64,000 nucleotides of DNA from positions 1 through 64,000 of the forward strand of contig JAIQGC010000009.1 in assembly GCA_020072805.1 (NCBI GenBank). Reading direction: 5' to 3'. The translations under genes and the position numbers were made by a program. The notes below the pieces were generated by a model. The model saw only the letters and a program-made list of their open reading frames with translations. It did not search any database and was not told where the DNA came from. Positions 33,468-45,626 of this stretch are shown in pieces; positions within the stretch are counted from its first letter, which is position 1, and every line of letters begins with the position of its first letter. This DNA comes from Terriglobia bacterium (GTDB taxonomy: Bacteria; Acidobacteriota; Terriglobia; Acidiferrales; UBA7541).

Positions 33468-34238
33468 TTATTGGCAACTGAATCCGCCGTCCGCCACCAG
33501 CGCGTGACCGGTTACGAAGCTCGATTCGTCACTGGCGAGGAACAAGGCGCAATTGGCAATTTCTTCCGCGGTTCCTACTCGTTTCAGCAGCGTGAAACTC
33601 GCGTATAGCTTGCGAATCTCCTCTGGCGCGCCGTGCCCCTTCAAGCGGTCGCACGCCCTGTCCAGCAATGGGGTCTGCACCGCCGCTGGACAGATGCAAT
33701 TTACGCGAATGTTGTTTTCCGCATAGTCCGCCGCCATGCTTCGCGTCAGTTGAATCACGCCTGCTTTGGACGCCCCGTAAGCGGAAAACTCCTTCACCGC
33801 GACAAGCCCTCCCACCGAGGACATATTTACGACGGCCCCACCACCGGACTTGATGATTTCCGGGATGGCAAAGCGGCTCACACGGAACACACCGTTGAGA
33901 TTCACCGCGATCTGCCTTTCCCAATCTTCGTCCGTCGCCGTGGTGACTGAACCGGTTGTCTCGATGCCCGCGTTATTCACCAGAATATCGAGCCCGCCCA
34001 GCGCGGCCACGGCCTCCGTGACGGCCTTCTTCGCGCTCTCGGTCTTGGCCACATCGCAGGCGACACCGCAGGCACGATGACCCTTGGCGGTCAGCTCCGC
34101 AGCCAATGCCTTTGCGGCCGTTACATTCAGGTCGCAGATGGCCACCGCAGCGCCCTCCGCTGCAAATTTCTCGGCTATCGCGCGTCCAATGCCCGACGCG
34201 CCTCCCGTCACAATTGCCCGCCTGCCCTTGAGTCTCAT
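33468..34238 (-). CDS. SDR family oxidoreductase
   Basis: A 256-aa classical SDR: VTGGASGIGRAIAEK near residue 11, NNAGIE near 88, catalytic VNMSSVGG and YGASKAGVIQL near 137-160, and the C-terminal FVTGHALVADGGFSCQ. It is followed upstream by a close relative (34,298), and the two probably arose by duplication. Neither substrate is identifiable; NAD(P)-dependent hydroxyl/keto conversion in the ring or side-chain pathway is likely. Confidence 0.88.
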   Translation of the reverse strand: MRLKGRRAIVTGGASGIGRAIAEKFAAEGAAVAICDLNVTAAKALAAELTAKGHRACGVACDVAKTESAKKAVTEAVAALGGLDILVNNAGIETTGSVTTATDEDWERQIAVNLNGVFRVSRFAIPEIIKSGGGAVVNMSSVGGLVAVKEFSAYGASKAGVIQLTRSMAADYAENNIRVNCICPAAVQTPLLDRACDRLKGHGAPEEIRKLYASFTLLKRVGTAEEIANCALFLASDESSFVTGHALVADGGFSCQ

Positions 34239-35121: not shown

Positions 35122-36255
35122 CTAGGCGCCCGTGACTCCTGCCGCGTCCAGTAAATCCTTCACGCGGTCCATGCCCTGAAAAGACGATTTGGCACGCGCG
35201 GGGTCAGCGAACGCGGTGATGTTCCACAGCACGATGTGCTGCAGTCCCGCCTCGCCCAGATCGCGAATCTGCTGCGCTATGTCTTCCGGCGTGCCGTTCA
35301 GAGTGTAATACTCGGTCACTTCCCGGGGCACGCGATTCATGATTTTTTCCGCTTCCGCCCGCCCGACGCGCGATGGGATGTAATCGTGGAAGCCGGAAGA
35401 TTCCTTGCCGAAAGGAGGCTCGGCCCCGAATCGCTCGAATAATTCAGCGGGGAGAAGCAGGCAGAGGCCCTTCACCAGAATGTGATCCAGAAGCTGCCGC
35501 ACCACGTTCCGATCTTCGTCCACCACCACGTAGGCCAGCATGCCCGCTTCAAACGACCGCGGGTCGCGCCCTGCTCCGCGCGCCGCCGCGTGAATCACGT
35601 CCAGCTTGGCGCGATATTCCCCCGGGGTCATGCGCGTGGGCAGCCAGCCGTCGGCCAGTTGCCCGGTGATGCCCAGTGCGCGCGGCCCGTGCGAAGCGAT
35701 CCATATGGGCGGAGTCTTGCCCTCGAAGGGCTCCAGGCCCAGCACGGCGTCTTTCAGTTTCCAGAATTGCCCGTCATAGTTCACCGGCTCGCTGCGCGAG
35801 GCCCACAACTTGCGGATAATCTTCAGCCCTTCCTCCAGTTTGGAGACGGGCTTTTCGAAGGAAAGTCCGTAGGGGGTGACGTTGCAGGCTTCCCCGGCGC
35901 CCAAGCCAAGGATGAAGCGGCCACGGGTGATGTGATCCAGGGTCAGAGCGGACTGCGCCAGCATCGCGGGATTGCGCCGCACGATGTCGGTCACTCCGGT
36001 GCCCATGCGGATCTTCTGCGTATGCGACCCCGCCGCGGCGATGGCCGCTACGGGATCGAGATAGACGTCGGCGCTCTTCTGAAAATTGGCCAGCGGGGTA
36101 ATGTCCGGCGTCCAGATCGAGCGCGGATGCCAGCCCATCAAGTGGCACGGCCACCACGCTGAATCGTAGCCGCGCGCTTCGGCGCGCTGGGCCTGCTGAA
36201 TTACTTTGTCAAACGGCGGCATGATGCCGCCTGGAATTCCCAGACGAATCTTCAT
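35122..36255 (-). CDS. LLM class flavin-dependent oxidoreductase 1
   Basis: A 377-aa luciferase-like monooxygenase/F420-dependent reductase family protein: MKIRLGIPGGIMPPFDKV, SHTQKIRMGTGVTDIVRRNP near residue 76 and FILGLGAGEACNVTPYG near 112. The family uses FMN or F420. The sequence resembles the F420-dependent subgroup, but cofactor choice cannot be settled by eye. It is one of three such genes in this unit (others at 39,870 and 40,943), all different in sequence. It lies between the SDR pair and the second IpdAB-like pair. Confidence 0.82.
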   Translation of the reverse strand: MKIRLGIPGGIMPPFDKVIQQAQRAEARGYDSAWWPCHLMGWHPRSIWTPDITPLANFQKSADVYLDPVAAIAAAGSHTQKIRMGTGVTDIVRRNPAMLAQSALTLDHITRGRFILGLGAGEACNVTPYGLSFEKPVSKLEEGLKIIRKLWASRSEPVNYDGQFWKLKDAVLGLEPFEGKTPPIWIASHGPRALGITGQLADGWLPTRMTPGEYRAKLDVIHAAARGAGRDPRSFEAGMLAYVVVDEDRNVVRQLLDHILVKGLCLLLPAELFERFGAEPPFGKESSGFHDYIPSRVGRAEAEKIMNRVPREVTEYYTLNGTPEDIAQQIRDLGEAGLQHIVLWNITAFADPARAKSSFQGMDRVKDLLDAAGVTGA

Positions 36256-36271: not shown

Positions 36272-37081
36272 TTAAACTTTTGTCGCCGAGCCGCGAAATT
36301 CAATCTTGCGCATGGCCTTCGGGTCCACCACATCGCGCAGCAGGCGCAAGTATTCTCTATCCGGCGCGGGCGTTTCCGGGACGCTCGCGGGCATCACCAG
36401 TTCGAACGCGGTCTGCTCCTGCACCTGCTTGGCGGTGACGCCGCGGTGCACGCTCACCAGGCGCATGCGCTTCGAATCCGGCTCGAAGTCCATCACGCAC
36501 AGGTCGGTAATCACCAGTTGCGGACCGTTGCGCAATCCCAGCTTGGCGCGGGAGTCGCCTCCATCCAGCCAGCCGACGCAGGCGCGGAAATCCACCTTCT
36601 TCACGAACGTCCGCGGATTGTGCGTGGTGGACCAGATAAAAATGCGCTTATCGAGCGAACCCATGTCCCCCATGCCGGCCGAACCGGGCAGGCGCACTTT
36701 GGGCTTGTGATAGTCGCTGCCAATGATGCTGTTGTTGATGTTGCCGTACTGGTCGATCTGCGCCCCGCGAATGCAGAACGTCTCCAGCGTGCCGCGGTGC
36801 ACGTACGACCACATGTCCTCATACTGCGGCAAGTACATCACACAGTTCTTCCACATCGTAGGGTCGAGGGTATTGCCGATCACCGCGCCGGGCTGCGCAT
36901 CCACCCCCACGGCGCCGGCGACCCAGGTAAGGCCAGGGGCGTGCGTGGCGCGCGCCAGAAGGACGGCGGAGACGGGAATGAACGACACGGTTCCGTTCAG
37001 AATAATATCTTCGCTCGTAAACGCCTTGGCCAGCGTGCAGACCATCAATTCGTCGATCGTGTATTCCTTCGCGGTTCCCAT
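36272..37081 (-). CDS. ipdB: IpdB-like CoA-transferase family beta subunit (copy 2)
   Basis: A 269-aa protein starting MGTAKEYTIDELMVCTLAKA, with GTVSFIPVSAVLLARATHAP near residue 30 and a KRMRLVSVHRGVTAKQVQEQT segment (first part shown) that parallels HMRLKSVHPGVTVQQV of copy 1 at 5,341. It begins 3 bp after its alpha partner. Two separate IpdAB-like pairs in one locus suggest two ring-opening or CoA-transfer steps on related intermediates. Confidence 0.74.
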   Translation of the reverse strand: MGTAKEYTIDELMVCTLAKAFTSEDIILNGTVSFIPVSAVLLARATHAPGLTWVAGAVGVDAQPGAVIGNTLDPTMWKNCVMYLPQYEDMWSYVHRGTLETFCIRGAQIDQYGNINNSIIGSDYHKPKVRLPGSAGMGDMGSLDKRIFIWSTTHNPRTFVKKVDFRACVGWLDGGDSRAKLGLRNGPQLVITDLCVMDFEPDSKRMRLVSVHRGVTAKQVQEQTAFELVMPASVPETPAPDREYLRLLRDVVDPKAMRKIEFRGSATKV

Positions 37082-37084
37082 GGC

Positions 37085-37981
37085 CTAGTCCCATTTCTCC
37101 AGATTCTTCAGCGCTGCCGGCCCGCCCAGCTTCGCGAGATACTCGTCGTGCGTCTTCAGTCCATGCACGAATTCATCCAGGAAGGCCTTCGTTCCTTCCG
37201 GGGTGCGCGACTCATCCGCGTAGCGCTGAAAGACCGCGCGGTCGAAGTTGTAGCGCGGGAAGAGCGAGCAGGGGTGCGCTCCGTAGGGCAGATGCACCAG
37301 GGCATCCACCTTGAAATAGGGAATGCCGGTGCGCTCCGGCGTGCGGCGGATCTCTTCGTTTTCGACAATCTCTTCCACACTCACGATCACTTTCTTCGCG
37401 GCCCGTGGAAAGACGTCCACGTCGGTCCAGATGGGTTTGGGGAAAAACTGGATATTGCCGTAGCGGTCAGCGCGGTGCGCGTGCAGGATGGCCACGTCCG
37501 GCTCAAGCGCGCGGCAGGCCACCACCGGCTTGCCCGTGAAGGGGCATTGGATGACCTTGGTGGTATCCGGATGCAGGCCCAGGATGTCGCTTCCCAGCCC
37601 CGAGCGGGTGACCCCAAAGGGCAGGCCCATGGCGCCCGCGCCGAGACGGGTCAGAATCGTGTGTTCCGTATACTCTTCGATCTCGAGTTGCTGCGCTTCG
37701 GCGGCGCGCCGGAAATTATTGGCCATGCCGAATTCATCGAGGTTGATGATGATGGCCATCACCTTGCGCACGCATCCCGCGGCGATCATCCAGTCGAGGC
37801 CAATGCCTCCAACCACCATGGCTACCTGCAGGTCGCGCTTGCCCGCGCGGATCAGCTCGCGCACTAGCGCGAGGGGGCTCATCTGCGTGCCCATGCCCTG
37901 CATGGCAATCGTGTCGCCGTCGCGCACCAGCGCGGCGGCCTGCTGCAAACTCACCAGCTTGTCTTCTTTTTTCGCGGTCAT
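37085..37981 (-). CDS. ipdA: IpdA-like CoA-transferase family alpha subunit (copy 2)
   Basis: A 298-aa protein with DTIAMQGMGTQMSPLALVRE near residue 19 in the place of the usual glycine-rich alpha-subunit motif, and VDALVHLPYGAHPCSLFPRY near 235, parallel to VDAVVRAPYGSHPFAAPGYY of copy 1. It is coupled to ipdB copy 2. The GMGTQMSP version of the motif is diverged from copy 1 (GGFINSSHP), consistent with a different substrate. Confidence 0.75.
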   Translation of the reverse strand: MTAKKEDKLVSLQQAAALVRDGDTIAMQGMGTQMSPLALVRELIRAGKRDLQVAMVVGGIGLDWMIAAGCVRKVMAIIINLDEFGMANNFRRAAEAQQLEIEEYTEHTILTRLGAGAMGLPFGVTRSGLGSDILGLHPDTTKVIQCPFTGKPVVACRALEPDVAILHAHRADRYGNIQFFPKPIWTDVDVFPRAAKKVIVSVEEIVENEEIRRTPERTGIPYFKVDALVHLPYGAHPCSLFPRYNFDRAVFQRYADESRTPEGTKAFLDEFVHGLKTHDEYLAKLGGPAALKNLEKWD

Positions 37982-38548: not shown

Positions 38549-39307
38549 TCAGCCCTGCCTCCCGCCGTCCACCCGCAGCACCTGTCCGGTGATGAAGGCG
38601 GCCGCATCGGAAATCAGATACGCCACCGCTTCGGCAATCTCTTCCGGCTCGGCCGCCCGCCCCATCGGCGTTGCCGCCTGCGCCTGCTTCCGGTGGGCTT
38701 CATCGGCGTAGGCTTCCAGCATGGGCGTTCGCACCGATCCCGGGGCCACGGCATTCACGCGGATCTTTTCCGGCCCCAGCATCCGCGCCAGTCCCACGGT
38801 GAAAGTTTCGACCGCTCCTTTGGCTGCGGCATACGGCAGCGTCATGCGCGTGCCGCCGAGCCGCGCCCCGATCGAACTGATATTGACGATCGCGCCGCCA
38901 CCGCGGCTTTGCAGAAGCGGAATCGCCGCCTGCGAGCAAAGAAACACGCTGCTCAGGTTGACCGCCAGCACGCGCTCAAACTGCTCCGCTGTCCATTCCG
39001 CGAACTGTTTGCGGTAGAGCGGATCTCCCGCGTTATTCACCAGTGCGTCCAGGCCGCCTTCCTTCTCTTCCACTGCGCGAAACATCCCGCGCACCGCCGC
39101 GCCGTCGCTCACAGCCGCCCGGTGTATCCAGGCCCTGCCGCCGGCCTGCTCGATCAGCCGTGCCGACTCCTTCGCGCCTTCCTCATTGCGCAGAAAATTG
39201 ACGATGACCGTGAATCCCCTGCTGCCCAGGGCCACGCCAATGGCCCGTCCGATGCCGGAGCTGGCACCGGTCACGAGCGCAATGCGGTTTCGTTTCTCCT
39301 CTTTCAA
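38549..39307 (-). CDS. SDR family oxidoreductase
   Basis: A 252-aa SDR: VTGASSGIGRAIGVALGSRG near residue 13, NNAGDPLYRK near 90, catalytic VNISSIGARLGG and YAAAKGAVETF near 140-160, and FITGQVLRVDGGRQG at the end. This one is FabG-like and not a close relative of the two SDRs at 33.5-35.1 kb. It starts 14 bp after the stop of the putative selenoprotein gene. Confidence 0.88.
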   Translation of the reverse strand: MKEEKRNRIALVTGASSGIGRAIGVALGSRGFTVIVNFLRNEEGAKESARLIEQAGGRAWIHRAAVSDGAAVRGMFRAVEEKEGGLDALVNNAGDPLYRKQFAEWTAEQFERVLAVNLSSVFLCSQAAIPLLQSRGGGAIVNISSIGARLGGTRMTLPYAAAKGAVETFTVGLARMLGPEKIRVNAVAPGSVRTPMLEAYADEAHRKQAQAATPMGRAAEPEEIAEAVAYLISDAAAFITGQVLRVDGGRQG

Positions 39308-39321
39308 ATCGCGTGCCGCGC

Positions 39322-39852
39322 CTAATCCTCGCAGCGGTACAAAATGTGAAACGCGTTGTTGAAGCGCTGAAAGCCGGTGACTAGCGCAAAATACGTCCCC
39401 AATTCGATCAGGTCGGCCTCACTGAAGTGCTTGCGAAACTCGGCCATGGTCGCGTCGTCAATCATTCCCTTGCGCTCCTGCGCCATGCACTCCGCGAAGC
39501 TCAGAATCGCCTTCTCCCGCTCCGTGAACGCGTCGGACTCCCTGAAATTGTCGATTTCCAGGACTTTCCGTTCCGGGATATTTGCTCGCTTGGCCCAAGC
39601 GAGATTCGCTTCCTTTCAATAATGGCAGTTGTTGAGCCGGGCCAGCCGCAGCCGCGCCAGTTCCTTGGACTCCGATTCGACATTGCCGCCCAGCACCGAT
39701 CCGTAGAATTCGTAAAACTTCTTGAACACCTCGGGATTGTTGGCCATCACCCGCGCGTACACCGTGTCGCCGATCCACTGATCGAACGTCTCGGTGAGCT
39801 GCCGGATATCCTCGGGCATCTTCGCGGGGTCCACGAGCTTGAGCTGCGGCAT
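39322..39852 (-). CDS. AhpD-like/carboxymuconolactone decarboxylase family protein, probable selenoprotein (in-frame TGA at codon 79)
   Basis: One reading frame of 177 codons runs from ATG at 39,852 (GGAGG just upstream) to TAG at 39,322, broken only by TGA at 39,618-39,616. The residues before it are ARLRLARLNNCHY. In this family they normally continue into the redox motif CxxC, so TGA stands where the second Cys belongs (C76-H-Y-U79). The 97 codons after the TGA stay in frame and family-like (SDAFTEREKAILSFAE, MAEFRKHFSEADLIELGTYF, GFQRFNNAF). A hairpin in SECIS position follows the TGA. AhpD-like Cys-x-x-Sec proteins are known, so selenocysteine insertion is the best reading; a nonsense mutation or sequencing error is possible. 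A thiol-peroxidase or related redox role is likely. Confidence 0.75.
39585..39618 (-). promoter_or_regulatory. Candidate bacterial SECIS element
   Basis: Immediately after the TGA (39,618-39,616) come 12 nt and then CTCGCTT-GGGCC-AAGCGAG, a perfect 7-bp stem with a five-base GGGCC loop starting 20 nt after the TGA. Bacterial SECIS hairpins lie within the coding region just after the UGA, with a small apical loop containing G residues. The fit in distance and shape is good; the exact loop differs from E. coli. Confidence 0.6.
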
Positions 39853-39869
39853 CTGTCCCTCCAGGGCGC

Positions 39870-40919
39870 TTACTTCTTTTTCTTCTTCGTCTTTTTCGTA
39901 AATTCCGGCATCACTTCCTTGCCGAACATTTTCAACGACTGCAGCACCTTCGCATTCGGGGGCCCGCCCGGCAGCCGGAAACGCAGCACGATTTCGTCCG
40001 CGTCGTATTCCTTCCCGTACATTTCCACCTGCCGAATGCAATCCTCCGGCGTCCCGCAGACAAAATGCTTGGCCGCCCGCGCCGTCGTGAAATCCGCTTC
40101 CTTCTGGAATTCCGGATGGTGCGTCAGAATGCCCCAGCGGTAATAGAACAGCCATTCCTCCACCGCCAGTTTCAGGAACGTTTCCTCGGCCTGCTTCCTC
40201 GTGGGCGCCACCCAGGCGTCGCGCATCAGCACCACCTTGGACTTGTTGCCGTGCTCCCTGGCACTGTCGCGATACAGCTTCACCTGGCCGTGCCACACCT
40301 TGGGGTCCAGCGGAAAAGGATCGCTGCACCACGCATCCCCCAGGCGCCCCGCTCGCGCAATCGTCTTGGGAAACATCCCTCCAACCCAGATTTCCGGCCG
40401 CGGCTTCTGGTACAGCCCGGGCACCAGCTGCACATCGGTGTACTGGTAGTATTTCCCGCTATAGGAGAACTTCTTCCCCTCCCAGGCCTTCATCAGCACA
40501 TCGAAGCCTTCCTCGAAGCGGGCCCCACGCTCATTGAAGGGTACGTTAAACATCTGGTTGTAGCCGGTGTGATAGCCGGAAGCCACGCCCAGGATCACCC
40601 GCCCGCGCGAGAGGTTGTCGATCATCGCGAACTGCTCGGCGATGTGCATGGGGTTATACAGCGGCAGAATCAGGATGTAGGTGCCCAGACGGATGCGCGT
40701 GGTGCGCGCCGCCAGCGCCGAAAGCAGCACCACCGAGCCGGGAAAAAGGCATTCCGTGCGCATGTGCCGTTCGGGAACCTGCAGCGAATCGAATCCCGCC
40801 GCTTCCGCCAGCTCCGCCTCGCGGAACAACTGGTCGGAAAAATCGGCGACTTCCTTCGACGACGGATACGGCCGGTCATACGGCCCGCCATGCGTATCCA
40901 ACAGGTAGTGAAGTTTCAT
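39870..40919 (-). CDS. LLM class flavin-dependent oxidoreductase 2
   Basis: A 349-aa protein starting MKLHYLLDTHGGPYDRPYPS; the 23 codons upstream would extend into the preceding gene and are not family-like. Motifs include RIRLGTYILILPLYNPMHIA near residue 75 and RGRVILGVASGYHTGYNQMF near 105, typical of the bacterial luciferase superfamily. It lies 17 bp before the AhpD-like gene and 23 bp after another luciferase-like gene. An oxidative or reductive step with FMN or F420 is inferred. A Lys-rich tail (EFTKKTKKKKK) is unusual. Confidence 0.83.
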   Translation of the reverse strand: MKLHYLLDTHGGPYDRPYPSSKEVADFSDQLFREAELAEAAGFDSLQVPERHMRTECLFPGSVVLLSALAARTTRIRLGTYILILPLYNPMHIAEQFAMIDNLSRGRVILGVASGYHTGYNQMFNVPFNERGARFEEGFDVLMKAWEGKKFSYSGKYYQYTDVQLVPGLYQKPRPEIWVGGMFPKTIARAGRLGDAWCSDPFPLDPKVWHGQVKLYRDSAREHGNKSKVVLMRDAWVAPTRKQAEETFLKLAVEEWLFYYRWGILTHHPEFQKEADFTTARAAKHFVCGTPEDCIRQVEMYGKEYDADEIVLRFRLPGGPPNAKVLQSLKMFGKEVMPEFTKKTKKKKK

Positions 40920-40942
40920 CGGCTGGCTCGCTCCGCTCAGTT

Positions 40943-41980
40943 TTATTGGAACTTCGGAAACACCTTTTCGCCAAACATCCGGATGCACTTCATGGTCTCC
41001 TCATGCCCGGGTCCGGTCGGATAGCGCAAATACAGAATCATGTGCTCGCAACGCGTTTCGTCGCGGTACCGCGCGATTTCGTCAATCACCTGCGCGGGCG
41101 TCCCCGCAATCAGCCGATTGGGCGCCACGCGGTCGAAGGTCCATTCCGCGTCGGTTATCGTTTTCACCCACGGCTCCCATTCCGTATTGAACCGCCCCGA
41201 TTCGAAAAAGCCCAGGTTCTTGTAGAACAAATGCATCGCCCGCACGTGCGGCCAGAAGACGTTCTCCACTTCGTGCTTCGTTTCCGCCACCCAGGCTGTG
41301 CGCAGCAGCGCCGTTTCCACCGCGGGATTCTTGTGTTCCGCCGAGGACTGGCGGTAAATATCTCCCCAGGACTTCATCACGTTGATGTGATGCAGCGGAT
41401 CGGTCACCCAGCCGCAGCCCAGCTTCCCCGCGCGCTTCAGCGCTCCTTCGCTCATCGCCCCGATCCACAGCGGCGGCCCGCTCTTCTGCACCGGCCGCGG
41501 CGTGATCGTCACGTTTTCGAGGTTGTAGTATTTCCCAGGAAAACTCCAGTTCTTCTCTCGCCACGATTTCTGAATAATCTGAATCTGCTCGGCGAAGCGT
41601 TCCACCGCTCCCTTCAACTCAATCCCAAACAGCTTGAATTCCGGCTCTACCAGCCCCAGCCCCGCGCCCAGAATCGCCCGCCCGCGCGAGATGTTGTCCA
41701 GCACGCACCATTCTTCGGCCACGTGGATGGGATGCCATTCGGGCAACTGCAAAATCGAGGTGCCCAGTCGCAACTTCTTCGTGCGCGAGGCCACCGCCGC
41801 CAGCAGCACCGCCGGCGCCGGCAGATACCCGTCCGGCATCATGTGGTGCTCCGGCACAAACATCGAATCAAAGCCGACCGCTTCGGCCAGTTCGGCTTCT
41901 TTTATGATTTCTTCGTAGAGGCGGGGAATATTGCTCCCGTCCGGCGGATCCTGGCTGTTGATGAGCATCCCGAACTTCAA
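40943..41980 (-). CDS. LLM class flavin-dependent oxidoreductase 3
   Basis: A 345-aa luciferase-like protein, starting MKFGMLINSQDPPDGSN, with FVPEHHMMPDGYLPAP near residue 42, KLRLGTSILQLPEWHPIHVA near 72 and GRAILGAGLGLVEPEFKLFG near 102. It shares the EHHM...LRLGT...HPIHVAEEW order with the gene at 39,870 and is probably its older paralogue. It is the first gene of the 12-gene minus unit; no promoter was recognised in the 69 bp before the receptor terminator. Confidence 0.84.
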   Translation of the reverse strand: MKFGMLINSQDPPDGSNIPRLYEEIIKEAELAEAVGFDSMFVPEHHMMPDGYLPAPAVLLAAVASRTKKLRLGTSILQLPEWHPIHVAEEWCVLDNISRGRAILGAGLGLVEPEFKLFGIELKGAVERFAEQIQIIQKSWREKNWSFPGKYYNLENVTITPRPVQKSGPPLWIGAMSEGALKRAGKLGCGWVTDPLHHINVMKSWGDIYRQSSAEHKNPAVETALLRTAWVAETKHEVENVFWPHVRAMHLFYKNLGFFESGRFNTEWEPWVKTITDAEWTFDRVAPNRLIAGTPAQVIDEIARYRDETRCEHMILYLRYPTGPGHEETMKCIRMFGEKVFPKFQ

Positions 41981-42102: not shown

Positions 42103-45100
42103 TTAGAACGTCAGCTTCAGGCTAACCTGCATCTGCCGCGGATTCCCTACCGTGCTGCTGATGACTCCCGCCTGCGGGTTGCACGATGTAGTCAGCGACT
42201 GCACTGCCGTCAAAGCGCACGGGAGCGCATCCAGTTGTGCCTGGGATGGCAACGACGCAAACTGCGGCGCCGGCACATAAATCTGGTTAAAGGGCAGCCC
42301 AAAGTTCGGGTGATTCAGGATGTTGAACATATCCAGGCGGAAGCGCATCCCCACCCGCTCGGTCAATGTGAAATCCTTGCCGATGCCAAAATCCATTTGC
42401 TTGAAGTTCGGCCCCCGCGCCGAGTTGCGTGGCGCACTGCCGAGGTTACCGGCATCCTGCAACGCATAGGCCCGCTCGTTGAGCCAGCCATTGATGTTGC
42501 CGGTCGTGGTGCTGCTCGAAACCAAGTTGGGACGGTCCGGATAGTCGATCGTGTCTCCAACGCCGGTAATGCCCACGCCCGCGAGAACGGAGAACGGCGT
42601 CCCGCTCTGGAACGTGCCCATTGAAGTAATCTGCCACCCGCCCAGAATCGCCTGCTGGATACCCGCCGCATTGCTCATGAACTTGCGGCCCTTTCCGACA
42701 GGAAGATCAAAGACCAGGTTCTCCGTGAAACGGTGCCGGATGCTGAAGAGCGATTCGGCGCGGTCCCACTGCTTCATGGCCGGATACTGGGTGCCCTGCG
42801 CCACGCCCACGATGACGTTGCCGGAGTTCACCGAGTCAGACTGCGACAGCGCCTTGGCAAACGTGTAGTTGGACGACATGGTCAGCATCGAACCGAACTT
42901 CCGGTTGAGCGCAAAGGTGACCGCGTTGTAGTTCGCCGTGGCATCGAACCGCTTCGAGTACAACGAGAAACCGATCGCATTAATCGCCGGCGCCGCCGTT
43001 CCCACAGACACGCATGCCGGGGGGAAGATCGGCAGACCATTGGCATCCGTGCCGCACGGCAGGTTGTAGTTGGACTCCTGCTTGCGCGGAATGTGATAGG
43101 AGTTCGATCCCGAGTAATTCAAGGTGAACGTGAAGTTCGAGGGCAGTTGCCGCTCAATCTCCGCGTGCCACTGCACCGACGTGGGCGAATTCATCGGCTC
43201 CAGAACTCCGGTCACCAAACCATAGTAGGTGCCCGCTGCTGATGTGCAGCGCCCCAGAGGATCGCTATCGCAAGTCGGGAACGCGAGCGGCGGAATCACT
43301 CCCCCCAATCCGTAGAGCAGCCAAATCGGCTGGCCGAAATAGCTGTTCAGCACCGGCTGCGGTGCGTTCCACTGCAACTGGCCCTGTCCGTTTCCGGCAT
43401 AGTCCACGAAATCATTGAAGACGCCAAAGCCGGCGCGGACCACCGTCTTGCTGTTGTTGAACGGATCATACGCGATGCCCAGCCGCGGCTGGAACTGCTT
43501 CAGCGAGTAGTTGTGGTAGGGCTGGCCGACGGTGATTTGCGTGTCCGTTGGATTCTGCCAATTGCCCAGCCGGTTGTTAACGTCCTCCAGTACTGGCACC
43601 TGGAAGTCGTGACGCAATCCATAAGTCAGCGTCAGGTTGGGACGAATCCTCCAGGCATCCTCCGCATACCAGCCCATCAGCGTCGTCCTCAATCCGTAGA
43701 TCGAATCCGGCCCGTCGCGATGGATTAGGAAGAAATTGGTGTTGGCGGCCAGGAAGTCGTTCACGCTGTTGAACGTGTAGCTGCCTCCAGTGATCGTCGC
43801 CGACTTCCAATTCCACTGGAACCGGTTGATCAGCCCGCCCACCTTGATCGTGTGCTTCCCGATGGTATACACCGCGTCTTCGTTGACCGGAAAATTGTTC
43901 TTGGCCAGCCGGAACGGTGCCGCATCGTCCAGCCCCAAAAACGTCAGCGAACCGGACGCCGTGCCCGCGCTGCCCGCTCCAATAGAGATGGCTCCAATAG
44001 TCTGCCGCGCGGCCAGGCCGGTATACTGGCTGGGCAGCAGCGGCGTGGTTGTCGACGTATCCGCGAAGATAAAGTTGCGCAGGAAGCTGACACTGAGGGT
44101 GTTCACCCAGTGGCTGCCCCCTAGATGCGACCACTTCATCATCAGGTTCTGGTTGCGGTCCTTGCGCATGAAATCGAAGCCCGGTAGATGGAAAAACTCG
44201 CTCGCATCCGCGTCCGTGATCGAATACCGCGCCGAGAGCGAATCCCGGTCCGTCAGGGCATGGGTGATGTTGACGATGCCGAAATCCTGCCGCGTTGGCT
44301 TCGGATTCGCAAAGATGTATTCCCCAACCCAGTCGCTGAGGATCGGCCCGTTCGGCAGCGGATACAGCGCCAGAATCGGCTGCATCGCCGCTGGAATGGC
44401 CACCTGCTGAATCGTCAAGGGACTCAAGCTTGTGGTGATCGAAACGGGATCCGGAACGCCGCCCGGGCAGCCTACCCCGCTCCCTCCTAGACCGCTATTC
44501 CGCGCGCAGTCAGTCGGCACGAACGCCACTTCCGTCTTGGTCAGCCGCTGCCGCAGCGCCTCGTAGTTCACGAAAAAGAACGTCTTGTCCTTCTTGATCG
44601 GCCCTCCGAGCGATCCGCCAAACTGGTTGCGCTTAAAGGGTGGCTTGGCCTGCGACGCGGCGTCATTGAAAAATTCCCGCGCGTCCAGCTTGTCATTCCG
44701 CAGAAATTCGTAGACGCTCCCATGCAGGCTATTGGTTCCTGTCTTGGTCGCGAAGCTCACCACCGAGCCCGATGCTCCGCCGAACGCCGCGCTGTAGCCG
44801 TGCGTCAACACCTGAAACTCGCTGATCGCTTCGACGCCGGGCATGTCTCCCGCCGACGCCGTCCCCGGCGCCGTAAATGTCCCGTTGGTAATGTTCACGC
44901 CGTCCACCAGATAGCCCACCGAGGTGCCCATCAGTCCGTTACCGCTGATATACGACCCGGTATTGGTCGCCGCCCCCAGCACCGTGGCCCCCGCCGTGTT
45001 GGTAATTTGCACCAACCCGGGCTGCTGTGTCACCAGCGCCGTGAAGCTGCGTTGGTTCAGCGGCAGATCCTGAATCTGTAGCGGCGAAATCGAGGATCCC

Positions 45101-45537
45101 ACCACCGCTTCCGTCGTGCTGATCTGCAACTCTTCGCCCTTTACTTCCACTGTCTGCTGCACGTCGCCCACAGCCATGGAAATCCGGATATTCTCCTCGC
45201 GCCCCGCTGCCAGCGTGACTTCCTTGGCTTCCCACTTCTTGAACGCGGGCGCTTCCACCACTACCCGGTAGCTCCCTGCCGGCAAGCGCACAAAGTTAAA
45301 ATGTCCATTGTCATCCGTCTGCGTGGACTCGGAGAGGCCCGTTCCATTATTGACGGCCGTCACCTTGGCCCGCGGTAGCGCGCCTCCGTTCTGGTCGGTC
45401 ACCTCGCCGCTCAGCGATGAAAACGTCGCCGCGCCCTGCCCGTAGGCTGGTGAAGAAGATAGCGACAAAAGAATCGCCCAAACGAGTCCCAAAAGCACAA
45501 AGCCGTATATCCGGCGGATACCCACGATCATGCTCAT
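42103..45537 (-). CDS. TonB-dependent outer-membrane receptor, Oar-like with carboxypeptidase-regulatory domain
   Basis: A 1,144-aa protein from MSMIVGIRRIYGFVLLG, with GAGAGGAG 9 bp before the ATG; an ATG 27 codons earlier overlaps the operator region and is rejected. A signal peptide ends near SSPAYGQG. Residues of about 45-120 form a CarboxypepD_reg-like fold (SGEVTDQNGGALPRAKVTA, DDNGHFNFVRLPAGSYRVVV), then a plug and a long beta barrel ending in QVSLKLTF with terminal Phe. This architecture is expanded in Acidobacteriota. Its promoter carries the same operator as the catabolic operons, so it probably imports the substrate or its carrier. Confidence 0.92.
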   Translation of the reverse strand: MSMIVGIRRIYGFVLLGLVWAILLSLSSSPAYGQGAATFSSLSGEVTDQNGGALPRAKVTAVNNGTGLSESTQTDDNGHFNFVRLPAGSYRVVVEAPAFKKWEAKEVTLAAGREENIRISMAVGDVQQTVEVKGEELQISTTEAVVGSSISPLQIQDLPLNQRSFTALVTQQPGLVQITNTAGATVLGAATNTGSYISGNGLMGTSVGYLVDGVNITNGTFTAPGTASAGDMPGVEAISEFQVLTHGYSAAFGGASGSVVSFATKTGTNSLHGSVYEFLRNDKLDAREFFNDAASQAKPPFKRNQFGGSLGGPIKKDKTFFFVNYEALRQRLTKTEVAFVPTDCARNSGLGGSGVGCPGGVPDPVSITTSLSPLTIQQVAIPAAMQPILALYPLPNGPILSDWVGEYIFANPKPTRQDFGIVNITHALTDRDSLSARYSITDADASEFFHLPGFDFMRKDRNQNLMMKWSHLGGSHWVNTLSVSFLRNFIFADTSTTTPLLPSQYTGLAARQTIGAISIGAGSAGTASGSLTFLGLDDAAPFRLAKNNFPVNEDAVYTIGKHTIKVGGLINRFQWNWKSATITGGSYTFNSVNDFLAANTNFFLIHRDGPDSIYGLRTTLMGWYAEDAWRIRPNLTLTYGLRHDFQVPVLEDVNNRLGNWQNPTDTQITVGQPYHNYSLKQFQPRLGIAYDPFNNSKTVVRAGFGVFNDFVDYAGNGQGQLQWNAPQPVLNSYFGQPIWLLYGLGGVIPPLAFPTCDSDPLGRCTSAAGTYYGLVTGVLEPMNSPTSVQWHAEIERQLPSNFTFTLNYSGSNSYHIPRKQESNYNLPCGTDANGLPIFPPACVSVGTAAPAINAIGFSLYSKRFDATANYNAVTFALNRKFGSMLTMSSNYTFAKALSQSDSVNSGNVIVGVAQGTQYPAMKQWDRAESLFSIRHRFTENLVFDLPVGKGRKFMSNAAGIQQAILGGWQITSMGTFQSGTPFSVLAGVGITGVGDTIDYPDRPNLVSSSTTTGNINGWLNERAYALQDAGNLGSAPRNSARGPNFKQMDFGIGKDFTLTERVGMRFRLDMFNILNHPNFGLPFNQIYVPAPQFASLPSQAQLDALPCALTAVQSLTTSCNPQAGVISSTVGNPRQMQVSLKLTF

Positions 45538-45626
45538 GCGGAAATACTCCTCTCCATTGAATTCCAGCGGCTGTGACCAGCCCTCTGCAACCACCCCAAA
45601 AAACTCAAACCAGCCCACGGCAGCCT

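Follow-up and report, generated by a model that had tools for sequence, protein, structure and literature searches.

An AhpD-like gene with an in-frame TGA in an acidobacterial catabolic operon is predicted to encode a divergent selenoprotein

AhpD-like selenoproteins with a CxxU motif were reported from the Sargasso Sea in 2005 (PMC1088965), AhpD-like 1 and 2 selenoproteins were described in the GOS study of 2008 (PMC2398784), and the type is also represented in an inventory of 2026 (PMC13188914). These proteins (COG2128/TIGR01926/PF02627) carry selenocysteine (Sec) as the second residue of the CxxC pair, and a bacterial SECIS element (bSECIS) directly follows the UGA. According to the published bSECIS model, the hairpin has a loop of 3–9 nt with a G in the first two loop positions, a stem of 4–16 bp, a UGA-to-loop distance of 16–37 nt and a minimum free energy of at most -7.5 kcal/mol (PMC13188914). 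For the related proteins PA0269 of P. aeruginosa (2O4D) and AhpD of M. tuberculosis, a five-residue active-site relay has been described (PMC3141380). The gene analyzed here lies in a 64,000-nucleotide stretch of a Terriglobia genome, hereafter the window. The kind of protein that it encodes is already known (also through the models NF053654 and TIGR01926), and the window protein, which shares domain, Sec position and hairpin placement with the described AhpD-like CxxU proteins, is a further member in a divergent, narrow subgroup. The novelty ascribed to it in a first-pass annotation was therefore overstated, as such proteins have been in the literature since the Sargasso Sea report. Our literature search found no paper joining selenoprotein, Acidobacteria and carboxymuconolactone decarboxylase, and the 2026 review mentions neither Acidobacteria nor luciferase-like operons (PMC13188914).

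The gene and its recoding elements are arranged as follows.

39852 to 39322, minus strand: predicted gene for an AhpD-like selenoprotein, 176 codons and a TAG stop, with codon 79 as Sec (assigned by PF02627 and predicted fold)
39616..39618, minus strand: in-frame TGA, predicted Sec codon 79, in the motif C76-H-Y-U79, where the AhpD CxxC has its second Cys
39585..39603 (read 39603-39585), minus strand: putative SECIS hairpin CTCGCTTGGGCCAAGCGAG, beginning 12 nt past the TGA
39857..39863, minus strand: putative Shine-Dalgarno-like site, GGAGGG right before the ATG, within CTGGAGGGACAG-ATG

Read from 39852 to 39322, the frame runs for 176 residues to its TAG and is broken by a single TGA at codon 79, in the context N-N-C76-H-Y-TGA-K-E-A-N. 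The first-pass annotation had described a frame open save for one TGA, set where the second Cys of the CxxC motif is expected and followed 12 bases later by a 7-bp hairpin with a GGGCC loop, in a gene that an ORF caller would split. All of this is borne out by our reading, which adds the minus strand, not given before, and an alternative fold of the hairpin with 8 bp and a GGC loop. Standard ORF calling indeed ends at the TGA, and the relatives of the gene have TGA or a Cys codon at that position. The conditions that the first-pass annotation had named as refuting were checked where possible, and the selenoprotein reading withstood them. Taken together, the sequence, the covariation and the genome content support Sec insertion, so that the gene at 39852-39322 almost certainly encodes a genuine selenoprotein.

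The hairpin CTCGCTTGGGCCAAGCGAG fits every constraint of the published bSECIS model, with a loop of GGGCC or GGC, a stem of 7–8 bp, a distance of 19–20 nt and a local minimum free energy of -12.6 kcal/mol. This energy is unremarkable when compared to shuffled sequences (z = -0.97), and 1.3% of random window positions are followed, within the distance range of a SECIS, by a 7-bp Watson-Crick stem with a 3–9 nt loop; the exact 8-bp/3-nt geometry with the offset seen here is found at 4 of 127,880 window positions. Since neither the energy is striking nor a comparable hairpin rare, the case for the SECIS rests on comparisons between homologues. Rfam searches over the region gave chance-level matches only.

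Within the genus, the gene is present in 3 of 36 genomes and lacking in the other 33. The two further copies (assemblies G005 and G214, the latter taken as the same record as the Terriglobia MAG entry L022) are 85% identical and carry TGA, not TGC or TGT, at the same codon, without any frameshift at that site. Past the TGA, dN/dS between these close orthologues is about 0.08 to 0.13, and the differences fall mostly on third codon positions (12/11/38 and 10/11/35 for first, second and third positions). Hence, purifying selection is acting on the part after the TGA as judged from these substitution patterns, which argues that this part is translated in frame. The hairpins of both orthologues differ from that of the window at two stem pairs, and both differences are compensatory.

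Searches with the window gene and with NF053654 across the phylum yielded 43 homologues. TGA is found in 32 of them, in every case at the CxxC column alone, and the remaining 11 have Cys there, so that alignment with AhpD-like relatives places either Sec (TGA) or Cys at this column throughout. A tree of the homologues requires at least six changes between Sec and Cys and sets the window protein on a long branch of 1.53 changes per column. The hairpin occupies one ungapped register in 22 TGA rows including the window, with 6–8 of 8 pairs kept; Cys homologues keep 2–4 of the 8 pairs, save for one (L033) that keeps 6. The remaining TGA rows form the NF053654-like clade and seem to carry their hairpins in a different register. 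For the covariation test we used 21 distinct TGA-homologue sequences of the shared register and the 8 stem pairs. In this set, 89.3% of cells are paired and 39 cells are changed on both sides compared to a shuffled mean of 8.6, such changes being seen at 7 of the 8 pairs. The covariation score is 0.674 in the true register versus 0.086–0.187 in slid registers, and RNAalifold on its own recovers the same helix. The hairpin is thus a fit to the bSECIS model that has been kept by compensatory changes. The exceptional homologue L033 (G312:C275:2544-2948) is a Cys (TGC) version that falls within a group of Sec versions in the tree. This position and the largely retained hairpin suggest that Sec was recently exchanged for Cys here, leaving a putative fossil SECIS. 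No DNA similar to the locus was found in phage records, and plasmid records held only distant relatives of less than 60% identity.

These comparisons bear on two readings in which no Sec would be inserted. If the TGA were a real stop, the locus would be a pseudogene or encode a truncated 78-residue protein, as standard ORF calling would have it; moreover, frames past stops often remain open in the GC-rich DNA of this window. However, purifying selection continues beyond the TGA, the TGA is conserved at a single column in 32 homologues and the hairpin covaries, and we reject this reading as highly improbable. A sequencing or assembly error in a TGC or TGT codon might be suspected because the window comes from a fragmented draft of 157 contigs, but the same TGA stands in the independent assemblies G005 and G214 and in many distant relatives, and it is followed by a hairpin that Cys homologues lack. 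We consider the chance of such an error negligible and have discarded it as well.

The source genome (3.98 Mb, 99.8% complete) holds the full Sec machinery: a search for selA, selB, selC and selD recovered all four, each above its curated cut-off, with selA at 549 bits, a full-length selB at 354 bits, selD at 347.5 bits and a tRNA-Sec (selC) with anticodon TCA at 61 bits. Across the phylum, selA is present in 32 of the 33 genomes with a TGA copy and in 19 of the 45 whose copies are all of the non-TGA kind (Fisher p = 1.4e-7, or 0.03 with the genus as the unit of counting), and the single exception, G493, has a strong selB. Among the genomes from the class search, selA was found in 32 of 32 checked and scored above cut-off in 31. 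Since selA occurs throughout the genus sample, its presence alone does not point to the AhpD-like gene.

Other genes of the source genome also carry an in-frame TGA. Its selD (L010, G000:C94) has one in the context ...GUAAKL..., making SelD a predicted selenoprotein, and two further CMD-domain genes have TGA as the U of a CxxU motif, reading CIPU in L072 and CPFU in L074. The latter (G000:C136:16879-17100) is an AhpD-like candidate selenoprotein whose TGA is followed by an 8-bp hairpin; it passes TIGR01926 with 114.7 bits when C is read for U. At L072 (G000:C121:2864-3094), an ArsR-type regulator is followed by an arsenite methyltransferase ending in SSCCG-TGA and then by an AhpD-like stretch with CIP-TGA; the locus resembles NF041537 below the cut-off of that model, and its first TGA may be read as a stop or as Sec. 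As selD and two other CMD-domain genes carry in-frame TGA codons, the genome appears, from these predicted genes, to use Sec repeatedly.

The window protein is a member of the AhpD-like family by its Pfam CMD domain (PF02627, 32.7 bits against a gathering cut-off of 23), by sequence matches to PA0269 and other AhpD-like structures and by its predicted fold. Its divergence is evident from the scores of more specific models: it reaches 46.8 bits with the TIGR01926 peroxidase-related enzyme model (cut-off 81.8) and 62.5 bits with NF053654 GroundWater_YciW, its best NCBIfam match, far below the 310-bit cut-off. With the NF053654-like proteins it shares the motif, CxFU in that clade, and an Asn four residues past the Sec, but it stands on a separate tree branch and its hairpin lies in a different register. 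An AlphaFold2 model (mean pLDDT 86) has the AhpD helical fold and matches AhpD-like structures with TM scores of about 0.8; Foldseek returned 32 PDB matches at E <= 0.001, all of them AhpD-like or peroxidase-related proteins and Bmp8. Bmp8 (6OHI/6OHJ), which we take to be an AhpD-fold debrominase, is the best match (6ohj, TM 0.83/0.78), a solved Cys protein resembling the window protein at 21% identity and thus at the level of the fold only.

The window protein shares a helical-hairpin active site with PA0269 and AhpD. E64, C76, Y78 and U79 align with the PA0269 relay residues Glu36, Cys48, Tyr50 and Cys51, with Sec where PA0269 has its second Cys, whereas the fifth relay residue (His55 in PA0269, His137 in AhpD) is replaced by Asn83. 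The proton relay Glu-Cys-His/Tyr-Cys-His that marks AhpD peroxidases is thus incomplete at its last His, and AhpD-like peroxidase chemistry is not assured. The selenol of U79 may dispense with this His, as it may be acidic enough by itself.

The gene lies in a row of genes on the same strand, and the first-pass annotation was right in placing it between a luciferase-like gene upstream and an SDR gene downstream. The assignment of the following neighbours is supported by synteny.

38549..39307, minus strand: SDR oxidoreductase, next gene downstream, same row
39870..40988, minus strand: luciferase-like monooxygenase, next gene upstream
40943..41980, minus strand: second luciferase-like monooxygenase, same row
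36272..37981, minus strand: two CoA-transferase subunits, closest solved relatives glutaconate CoA-transferase and the IpdAB-type 6CO6 family
35122..36255, minus strand: third luciferase-like (F420 Mer-like) oxidoreductase

Further neighbours are SDRs, a SnoaL-like protein, a DUF2889 protein, an acyl-CoA ligase and an outer-membrane receptor, and in both G005 and G214 the gene order from this receptor to the AMP-ligase is kept across about 14 kb. This set of genes suggests that the operon breaks down a cyclic or terpenoid-like compound. The large outer-membrane beta-barrel receptor (42103-45618) adjoins the operon, is conserved in both relatives and may import the substrate. An additional SDR gene (33468-34238) is without a counterpart of its own in the G005 and G214 operons, where its best match is the neighbouring SDR at 53–54%; it is probably a local duplication or insertion. 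Promoter and terminator scans gave nothing above chance.

In the mechanism that we propose, SelB with Sec-tRNA(Sec) would bind the hairpin just downstream of UGA-79 during translation, and Sec would be inserted to give a 176-residue protein, predicted to be all-helical, in which Cys76-x-x-Sec79 forms the redox pair. As the attacking selenolate, Sec79 would most likely reduce a hydroperoxide or disulfide, and Cys76 would resolve the selenylsulfide. Given the gene neighbourhood, we tentatively favour a selenol-based peroxide or disulfide reduction, probably protecting or regenerating the flavin/F420-type oxidoreductases of the operon, at a confidence that stays a little short of even. The protein could instead be a selenoprotein of another function, namely a substrate-specific pathway enzyme (e.g. 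for reductive group removal, cf. Bmp8) rather than an AhpD-type peroxidase or disulfide reductase. The long branch of the window protein, Asn83 in place of the relay His and the fixed, strictly conserved operon place beside luciferase-like, SDR and CoA-transferase genes would agree with a narrow subgroup acting on a catabolic intermediate and not as a general antioxidant, as would Bmp8 being the best structural match. However, the similarity to Bmp8 is confined to the fold, the NF053654-like clade likewise has Asn at the relay-His column and none of the operon genes was recognised as one for dehalogenation; we therefore regard this function as unlikely, for the subgroup as for the window protein itself.

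The locus represents a selenoprotein gene of a type that standard gene callers cut in two. TGA-containing AhpD-like genes were found in 33 of the 396 genomes searched across the phylum, and they are common in Acidobacteriota, including in a subgroup that falls below current NCBI model cut-offs. Since the window gene holds a fixed place in a catabolic operon, a role of selenium in that pathway becomes testable.
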